Source: Actinomycetes bacterium (GTDB lineage Bacteria; Actinomycetota; Acidimicrobiia; Acidimicrobiales; Ilumatobacteraceae). Taken from it: a stretch of DNA of 37,899 nt. The position numbers and the translations under genes were made by a program. This document shows, piece by piece, positions 25,552 through 28,016 of the stretch. Below the pieces are notes generated by a model. That model was given only the letters and a program-made list of their open reading frames with translations. It did not search any database and was not told where the DNA came from. The stretch lies in contig BJGC01000020.1 of the NCBI GenBank assembly GCA_014190235.1, positions 1 through 37,899 of the forward strand, in the 5' to 3' direction. Every line of letters starts with the position of its first letter. The first letter of the stretch is position 1.

Positions 25552-26499
25552 TTAGTTCGCTAACACAAATCGAGCGGCATTGAGTCCACTTAATGTTGCG
25601 CCTTCTACTTTTGCTCCTTTAAAAGCATCTCCAGCAAGTAACAATGTTGCGTCGTTCGTTGACCAGAAATAATCTGGCCACAAAACCTTTGGCGTCGCAA
25701 AGCGCCATTTTTTTACTTGTGATTCTGTAATGGTGAGTCCATCAAGATAGGGAGCAGCGGACGACACCAAGATGTCGTGTTGTTGTTCGAGCGACGCATC
25801 CCAGTGTGTGCGACTGAACTCTGCGTTGGCATGCAACGTAAGCGCGGGCGACCCAGAAACACCTTTTGTCATGTTGTCTGCAATGAATTGAAAAGTGTTG
25901 TCCGGGTTTTGGAGACCACCTGGTGGGGCAATGCGGTGAGTCCCCGTGTATGTCAGTAGTAGCGCGATTGTTCTGTCATAGTCCGTGCCACGCAGGGTTT
26001 CTGGAAGTTCGACACCTGCAGTAAATAACAAAGAGTAGGACTGCGGTAATGGACACGTTGAAATTAAAACATCACATTGCAATTCAGTGGCATCGTCGAT
26101 CTGCACTGTCCAACCAGAATTCGTTCGAGAAAGTGCAAAGACCATTGTGCTGCAACGCACGTCTAGTCCCTGGGACATGTACTTGGCCACGCTGTTCATT
26201 CCGTGTGTGCCGATGTATCGCGGATGTCCATCGTCGGACGCAAAACCACGGCACCATTCATGAGCAATGTCGTCGTGTGTCCACTCATGCACTATCGCTG
26301 CAAAGTCATCGGATCGAACTGTAAAAAATTGTGCACCATGGTCGACAATGGCATCACCAATGCGTCGAGTGGCCATGCGTCCACCCACAGATCTTCCCTT
26401 ATCAAGAACAATGACGCTGTGACCCGCGCGAGACAAGGCTCGTGCCGCGGTGAGTCCGGCTATTCCGGCACCTACTACAACCACGCGCTTTTTTGTCAT
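25552..26499 (-). CDS. Renalase-like FAD-dependent oxidoreductase
   Basis: A 315-residue flavoprotein. The dinucleotide-binding fold opens the chain (VVVVGAGIAGLTAARAL, G10-x-G12-x-x-G15), then DKGRSVGGRMATRR, the usual GGR motif, and IVDHGAQFFTVR. Near the end LLLAGDAFKGAKVEGATLSGLNAA is the second FAD-contacting motif. This matches the amine-oxidase/renalase-like group often placed beside isoprenoid or carotenoid genes; the substrate is unknown. ATG 26499 stands 7 bases after TAGCGT. It is convergent with the polyprenyl synthase gene. Confidence 0.85.
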   Translation of the reverse strand: MTKKRVVVVGAGIAGLTAARALSRAGHSVIVLDKGRSVGGRMATRRIGDAIVDHGAQFFTVRSDDFAAIVHEWTHDDIAHEWCRGFASDDGHPRYIGTHGMNSVAKYMSQGLDVRCSTMVFALSRTNSGWTVQIDDATELQCDVLISTCPLPQSYSLLFTAGVELPETLRGTDYDRTIALLLTYTGTHRIAPPGGLQNPDNTFQFIADNMTKGVSGSPALTLHANAEFSRTHWDASLEQQHDILVSSAAPYLDGLTITESQVKKWRFATPKVLWPDYFWSTNDATLLLAGDAFKGAKVEGATLSGLNAARFVLAN

Positions 26500-26545: not shown

Positions 26546-27055
26546 CTATCGCAATTCGTGAACGCGCAAAATGAGTTCTCGAGACCATGTGTCGAGTTGG
26601 CGACCACTGATGTGTTCGGTGATCTGGATGGCCTGCGAAGAATCTTCTAACATTTGGCTCCAGCGGATATATCCGCCCATGATGCCAACAAGACGATCTC
26701 CGACTTCTTCTGCATGAATGACGATTTTTGCTTCTTTGTTGATCAGATCACGAAGTTCTGTGTAGAACACACGGAGCCATGCATCGAGGTCGTCTGCTCC
26801 GCTGAGTGGACGATGTCGAAATGGCAGATGCAGTTCGTCGTAGGCGTGGAGGTTATGCGGCGCAGCAATAATTGAAACGACGAAGTCGAAATGATTTTCT
26901 CTCAACCAGATGATTTCTTCTTGACGGCGAACGCGACGGTGATTGTCTCCGTAACCACCTGGACGCTCGCAAATAGCGACACGATCTTTGATGATCCACG
27001 TAAAGTTTCGAGGCGTAATACCTAAGGCCCATTTTCCACGCAATTTCGGGGGCAT
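26546..27055 (-). CDS. Dual-specificity-phosphatase-like protein lacking the catalytic cysteine
   Basis: A 169-residue cytosolic protein with the layout of a tyrosine/dual-specificity phosphatase: ITPRNFTWIIKDRVAICERPGG, RRQEEIIWLRENHFDFVVSII, ELHLPFRHRPLSG, then the P-loop position IVIHAEEVGDRLVGIMGGYIRW. The canonical HC(x5)R is here H114-A115-(x5)-R121: the nucleophile Cys is Ala while the His, the Arg and the following helix are kept. This suggests a binding-only pseudophosphatase. ATG 27055 has a strong AGGAG 7 bases upstream, and a TACATT box at 27089-27094. Family assignment rests on pattern, not on a search. Confidence 0.72.
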   Translation of the reverse strand: MPPKLRGKWALGITPRNFTWIIKDRVAICERPGGYGDNHRRVRRQEEIIWLRENHFDFVVSIIAAPHNLHAYDELHLPFRHRPLSGADDLDAWLRVFYTELRDLINKEAKIVIHAEEVGDRLVGIMGGYIRWSQMLEDSSQAIQITEHISGRQLDTWSRELILRVHELR

Positions 27056-27088
27056 TCGGTTCTCCTGGTGATTCTGTTGGCTAGATGA

Positions 27089-27149: not shown

Positions 27150-28016
27150 CTACCGTACAGAACCCAAGACAAGACGCTGTTTGCTCCGACGAATTTCACG
27201 GCCACCACCGATATCACACGCCAAGCGCGCTCCACTAGCGACCATGAGCACTCGCTCGATAGTGGCTTGATCAGGAGGATACGGGTGACTGAGCCACGTG
27301 CGCAGTGCGCGTCGTGCGAGGGCAATTGGTGCCGCGGTGAGGGCTACAGCATCGGTTGGATCAAGTGCAGCCGCAAGAATGTCAAGCAGTTCGTTGTCGT
27401 CGCGCATGACATTGGCCGCACGTGTGAGGATGGGTACAAGATCACGCTGCGACATCGTGTTCATTGCAGGTAAGAGATTGTGTCGAATATTATTGCGGAG
27501 ATAACTGGTGTCGTCATTGGTGTGATCATGCACCACCGAGATGTCAAGTTCGGCGCAGAGCGCGTGCGTGTCGGTGCGACGAAGTTGTAGAAGCGGCCGA
27601 CAAATACCCGGTGTCATGGCTGAGAGTCCTTGTGTGGCGGCTCCGCGCATGAGATTAATGAGCATTGTCTCGGCCTGATCATCAGCAGTGTGTCCGGTCA
27701 TGATGTCAGATGGCAAGACGCCGTATCGGGCAGAGCGAGCGCGGGCTTCAAGGTTGGCGCCATGCTCAATGCTGACACGATGTAACACCACCTCGACTCC
27801 GAGTTGTTGTGCAAGTGATGAAACGAGTTCTACGTCGGTATCTGAATCATCTCGCAGCGAATGATTGACATGGTGGGCGGTGACGTGCAGTCCGTGATTA
27901 ACGGCGAGCACCATCAGTGCCATCGAGTCTGCTCCACCCGAAACTGCACATGACACAGGTGTTGCGCTTGGCGGAAATGTGCACTGGGCTAGAAGTTCAG
28001 CGATGAGTTGAGACAT
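27150..28016 (-). CDS. tilS: tRNA(Ile)-lysidine synthase TilS
   Basis: 288 residues. The PP-loop ATP pyrophosphatase motif SGGADS is at 26-31, followed by VNHSLRDDSDTD, the GHTADDQAET motif and the NLMRGAATQGLSAM segment, all typical of TilS. It makes lysidine at C34 of the CAU-anticodon tRNA(Ile), needed to read AUA. It is shorter than the E. coli protein (about 430), lacking the C-terminal domains, which is common in actinobacteria. ATG 28016 lies 25 bases after the stop of the small membrane protein gene. The usual hpt-ftsH neighbours are absent. Confidence 0.92.
   Translation of the reverse strand: MSQLIAELLAQCTFPPSATPVSCAVSGGADSMALMVLAVNHGLHVTAHHVNHSLRDDSDTDVELVSSLAQQLGVEVVLHRVSIEHGANLEARARSARYGVLPSDIMTGHTADDQAETMLINLMRGAATQGLSAMTPGICRPLLQLRRTDTHALCAELDISVVHDHTNDDTSYLRNNIRHNLLPAMNTMSQRDLVPILTRAANVMRDDNELLDILAAALDPTDAVALTAAPIALARRALRTWLSHPYPPDQATIERVLMVASGARLACDIGGGREIRRSKQRLVLGSVR

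Follow-up and report, generated by a model that had tools for sequence, protein, structure and literature searches.

A class-wide protein of the Acidimicrobiia with a predicted phosphatase fold and a rebuilt, cysteine-less catalytic loop

The window, the whole stretch of DNA analysed here, comprises 37,899 nt of contig BJGC01000020.1 (assembly GCA_014190235.1) from a member of the Ilumatobacteraceae whose genome spans 2.02 Mb and is 96% complete. A gene on its minus strand encodes a protein of 169 residues, here called X, and lies between its upstream operon partner tilS and an oxidoreductase gene.

25552–26499, minus strand: FAD/amine-oxidase-type oxidoreductase gene, 46 bp downstream of X
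26546–27055, minus strand: coding sequence of X (predicted dual-specificity phosphatase fold), 169 aa, translated from the ATG at 27055
26693–26716, minus strand: rebuilt P-loop HAEEVGDR, residues 114–121 of X, placed by profile alignment and the 262-sequence comparison
26915–26968, minus strand: motif ERPGGYGDNHRRVRRQEE, residues 30–47 of X, with G33, G34, R40, R43, R44 and E47 in 262/262 sequences
27017–27040, minus strand: N-terminal tail RGKWALGI, residues 6–13 of X, conserved in the order and often changed or absent elsewhere
27062–27066, minus strand: Shine-Dalgarno sequence AGGAG, 6 nt 5′ of the X ATG, read from the sequence
27150–28016, minus strand: tilS (tRNA-Ile lysidine synthetase), separated from X by a 94-bp gap

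X fits no family in the libraries tried (Pfam, NCBIfam and PADLOC). A Pfam search with X gives no family above threshold and no DSPc, its lone row being a sub-threshold match to DUF3695 (E 0.23), while NCBIfam matches neither X nor any of 18 homologues, a single one of which matches Pfam DSPc (E 0.14). The AlphaFold2 model, calculated from the window protein and 68 homologues, has a pLDDT of 89.3 and a pTM of 0.85, and has the layout of a P-loop, with a strand at residues 111–115 followed by a helix at 120–132. VIA-align places human DUSP23/VHZ first (2img, Z 17.1, rmsd 2.5 over 144 residues; 4erc, Z 16.7), Foldseek also ranks 2img at the top (E 1.2e-7), and the top 50 rows of either search all look, by their titles, like chains of the PTP superfamily. 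In a search of solved structures (PDB), a profile of the 18 homologues matches 25xa (E 1.9e-6, profile positions 15–148), a chain titled dual-specificity phosphatase family protein whose nearest other solved chain is human DUSP23 (E 3.2e-24). The model, both structural searches and the profile match thus assign X, by prediction, a PTP/dual-specificity phosphatase fold. Since HCRAGYGR of 25xa aligns residue for residue under HAEEVGDR, the latter marks the true P-loop position and a chance H...R is ruled out. Both the phosphatase fold and the placing of HAEEVGDR at the HC(x5)R site, which the earlier note had proposed from the letters of the window, are therefore borne out, the fold at the level of structure prediction.

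The enzyme signature HC(x5)R itself is absent from X. To follow the loop through the family we reduced 360 loci to 350 full ones and then to 262 distinct near-full sequences, a set over-weighted by the window's own family; rows matching fewer than 140 of the 171 columns were dropped before counting, among them those of f81, another family of the phylum. The loop consensus is H114-x-[DE]116-x-Φ118-x-[DE]120, where H114 is kept in 261/262 sequences and D/E116 in 257/262. Position 118, a glycine (x3) in the canonical P-loop, is V, L, F, I or M in every sequence, and position 120, the canonical glycine x5, is Asp or Glu in 260/262. The nucleophile position is far less constrained: residue 115 is most often Arg (61 sequences), followed by Ala (59), His (41), Gly (31), Gln (21), Asn (20), Ser (10) and Cys (6), with others making up the rest, so that Cys is absent from 256 of the 262. 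The earlier description of a catalytic Cys replaced by Ala is right as to the missing Cys and understates the change, the entire loop being rebuilt around a free position 115; nor is Ala fixed across the clade. That His and Arg are retained holds for the His, whereas position 121 carries neither Arg nor Lys in 78/262 sequences.

This P-loop Arg (R/K121 in 184/262) has been lost in many lineages, mostly those with an Arg at 115. R115 stands alone in 60 sequences and R/K121 alone in 183, both occur together in one and neither in 18, leaving at least one basic loop residue in 244/262. The near-exclusion looks as if the loop requires one Arg, a reading that is suggestive only, because the tree offers too few independent events. 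On a quick tree of 187 of the 262 rows after thinning, calculated with the loop columns omitted and with 41 of 184 inner branches starred, the swap between R115 and R/K121 amounts to 3 independent starred pairs (6 over all branches) with a median p of 0.5, and formal coevolution was dropped as a claim despite the striking raw table. With its canonical glycines gone, two acids in addition and the P-loop Arg missing in many lineages, the loop is a doubtful binder of phosphate, and the earlier suggestion that it may still bind phosphate appears weak; an acidic loop devoid of glycines would make a poor phosphate cradle.

Outside the loop, conservation is strict. W20, G33, G34, R40, R43, R44, E47 and W50 are invariant in all 262 sequences, and Y72 (261), E46 (260), E30 (256), N68 (255), H39 (249) and R31 (249) nearly so. 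The N-terminal K8-W9-A10 is almost fixed among 50 distinct sequences of the order, as nearly are G12 and I13, and W9 is kept class-wide in 207/262 and gapped in 38/262. As residues 1–9 (window positions 27029–27055) fall below pLDDT 50 in the AlphaFold2 model and are conserved in the order all the same, this stretch hints at a binding tail. Against two close congeners, dN/dS is about 0.006 (0.0077/1.20) and 0.016 (0.0128/0.777), rough ratios given that dS is already high in both; the ten remaining comparisons have a dS of at least 1.7 or an undefined one. The low ratios indicate a gene under strong purifying selection that is not decaying, in keeping with what the intact frame and good ribosome binding site had suggested at the outset.

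X is present in 59 of the 61 near-set genomes, the window's own included, two of which show a second, short match split by a contig end. Across the class Acidimicrobiia it occurs in 232 of 247 genomes and in 170 of the 175 good ones, with one copy each. The five good genomes lacking it are G074, G187 and G258, all of family f26 (which we take to be the Acidimicrobiaceae), together with G153 and G088, where the absence is possibly an assembly gap. In the phylum set X is found in 42 of 396 genomes; the 5 outside the class all belong to f81 and give weak matches. Homologues outside Actinomycetota were sought by pattern scan alone, with the best 80 of 548 matches considered, and among these the three closest named matches are 97–99% identical to X. 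A mobile-element origin and an anti-phage role were set aside: the plasmid and phage collections hold no match for X, and PADLOC returned none for four members of the family.

Taken in its general sense, as a PTP fold that lacks the catalytic Cys and is maintained by selection, the term pseudophosphatase would apply to X as modelled. We consider it probable that X is a housekeeping pseudophosphatase of the class Acidimicrobiia, a non-catalytic binding module whose pocket has turned from a phosphate cradle into an acidic site, because nucleophile and cradle glycines are missing and two carboxylates have entered the loop, yet selection is strong and uniform. A DUSP23-like fold would have abandoned cysteine-based phosphatase catalysis no later than in the ancestor of the class, assuming that the change was a loss rather than a gain. 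Its P-loop would have been rebuilt into an acidic site made of H114, D/E116 and D/E120, usually with one Arg or Lys at 121 or an Arg at 115. The rebuilt pocket, together with the basic segment ERPGG..NHR..RR.EE, would then hold a ligand or a partner protein, with the contact between the two and the loss of activity both presumed; if it lies near the segment, the acidic pocket could accommodate a cationic group, a metal or the segment itself.

The conserved polar residues R40, R43, R44, E47 and H114 could pass for an active site as readily as for a binding site. X could be a PTP-fold enzyme that works without Cys, in which H114, D/E116 and D/E120 hydrolyse or transfer a small phosphate-bearing molecule, possibly helped by a metal and the ERPGG..NHR..RR segment. 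This reading is unlikely, though it ranks second to the binding module and ahead of a folate phosphohydrolase. It gains from the retention of three acid/base loop residues in 257–261 of the 262 sequences while the nucleophile position drifts, from the complete conservation of R40, R43, R44 and E47, and from the basic loop residue (R115 or R/K121) in 244 of them. It loses from the searches made, which found no precedent, and from the Arg 121/115 swap, which falls short of significance when the tree is taken into account (3 independent starred pairs). Put more specifically, that X is a class-wide enzyme of a core process, with a PTP fold, no Cys, a His-Asp/Glu-Asp/Glu loop, an Arg at 121 or 115 and the invariant R40, R43 and R44, acting on a phosphorylated metabolite, it is slightly more doubtful again.

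The gene neighbourhood raises a further candidate. We counted neighbours at 57 loci outside the window's family, with a distance cut-off of 700 bp and sufficient flank at 56 of them upstream and 54 downstream. There folP lies upstream of X in 52/56 loci and folB or folK downstream in 49/54, in the order tilS-hpt-(ftsH)-folE-folP-X-folB-folK-(DUF2520)-panC-coaX (identities by Pfam), and at one locus (L219) the operon genes abut or overlap. As 220 of the 247 Acidimicrobiia genomes have folK, most of the class combines X with folate synthesis. X might then supply the missing folate step, which falls between FolE and FolB and removes phosphate from dihydroneopterin triphosphate; according to the available text of PMC1971073, the gene for this step is unknown in most bacteria. 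This was the explanation favoured at first from the operon.

A two-way dissociation demotes it. All three f26 genomes keep a tilS-hpt-folE-folP-folB-folK operon devoid of X, in which folP is followed directly by folB, and in G074 the Pfam search puts folB between folP and folK. Conversely, G182 retains X in the order tilS-hpt-ftsH-X-DUF2520-panC-coaX (locus L391), with folE, folP, folB and folK gone from the operon and folK not found in the genome. At least eight good genomes carry X and lack folK (G068, G091, G036, G204, G032, G261, G182 and G215); in G032, G036 and G204, the last a single-contig assembly of 5.0 Mb, folE and folB were not found either. Left out of this comparison were G065, where the contig ends 445 bp from X and folK may be unassembled; G153, which has folE, folB and folK and no X, with one folK match against two in most f43 rows and X possibly unassembled; and G088, which lacks X, folB and folK and whose folE has a contig end 875 bp away. 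X also sits beside tilS and away from the fol genes in the window's own family: of the best 80 of 548 loci (65–99% identical), taken to represent that family, 71 have enough flank, and 70 of these have tilS no more than 1.2 kb upstream; none of the 80 shows a match to FolE, FolP, FolB or FolK.

The presence of X therefore does not track the folate synthesis genes, and the two are separable neighbours. Because the dissociation runs both ways, between f26 on the one hand and G182, G032, G036 and G204 on the other, folate is the wrong function for X or not its sole one, and an enzyme of the missing step is now improbable. Nor is X indispensable everywhere, since f26 lives without it in 3/3 genomes. 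For genome-context inference the case is a caution, as operon position alone would label X a folate enzyme.

folK is missing from several members of the window's family, and the three of these that were checked for folE and folB have neither, which suggests folate auxotrophs with patchy gene retention. The window's genome carries folB next to folK on another contig and folE on a third (L389, G000:C5:91283-92035; L390, G000:C25:157-690). Many genomes of families f38 and f43 (e.g. G061, G067 and G082) have two folK matches and a folE-folB pair apart from a folP-X-folK cluster, a split and partly duplicated folate operon. In part of the window's family (L031, L124, L162, L180, L182 and L244), epimerase-like and alpha/beta-hydrolase genes lie 3′ of X.

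Rare Cys115 forms occur naturally (L015–L017, L019, L032 and L220, with loops HCEEVGDR, HCEEVSDK and HCDDIDDQ). The earlier note had taken Cys-bearing homologues as a mark of local mutation; they do exist, HCEEVGDR congeners being about 80% identical to X, and are sporadic, costing 3 changes on the tree. As residue 115 varies freely and, within the window's family, the Cys forms branch among relatives with Ala or Ser, Ala115 reads as one of several residues at a position of the rebuilt loop that is free of constraint, and the Cys-less state as family-wide. That X is an ordinary phosphatase hit by a recent Cys-to-Ala mutation in the window's lineage is hardly credible, the HCEEVGDR congeners notwithstanding, for the 262-sequence comparison and the tree contradict it, with Cys missing in 256/262, three separate changes and P-loop glycines lacking throughout. 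Judged from their loops, the six Cys115 sequences, five of which pair Cys115 with R/K121, may have phosphatase activity. The drifting nucleophile position and these Cys forms provide ready natural variants for testing catalysis by the rebuilt loop. The genome does not lack real phosphatases, since an ordinary dual-specificity enzyme with HCAAGIGRSG is encoded elsewhere in it (L279, G000:C11:14438-14635, minus strand).

The pseudophosphatases described so far come mainly from animals and depart from active enzymes at one or two residues. X would instead be a bacterial, class-wide family with one member per genome, in which the whole catalytic loop has been remodelled and is held by selection. 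The DUSP23/VHZ type (2img and 4erc; 25xa of bacterial type) appears to share with X the entire fold (Z 17.1 and 16.7), an N-terminal N[FW].WV...LA and the place of the P-loop; unlike it, X has no catalytic Cys, no P-loop glycines and two loop acids, and carries the ERPGG..NHR..RR.EE segment where 25xa has a short ALPGGSGKEDE. STYX, of the animal DUSP family, is likewise a dual-specificity phosphatase fold without Cys. It has Gly for Cys, and a single change back restores activity, as described in the available text of PMC8269279. X does not fall into the STYX subtype, being bacterial and class-wide with a wholly rebuilt loop (x3 Gly lost in 262/262, x5 acidic in 260/262). In the available main text of the same review, the strings 'bacteria' and 'prokaryot' occur nowhere, and no paper of the library searched combines Acidimicrobi- and pseudophosphatase. 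The role of FolQ/NudB, the dihydroneopterin triphosphate pyrophosphatase, would suit the place that X takes in the operon across most of the class; FolQ is, however, a Nudix protein (PMC1971073, available text), whereas X has a predicted PTP fold and is separable from the folate genes.

X also resembles the conserved signature proteins of the Acidimicrobiia, unknown proteins near-universal in the class (PMC5962788, in its available part). The same part of that study describes a start from Acidimicrobium ferrooxidans proteins, so its list would miss X if f26 is the Acidimicrobiaceae. Among the distant homologues of f81 (L204–L208 and L240–L243), five have HCD[RH]xxEWL, with Cys present and Arg absent, and L242 keeps the ERPGG..HR..RR motif at a sugar-transferase/sigma-factor locus outside the tilS operon.
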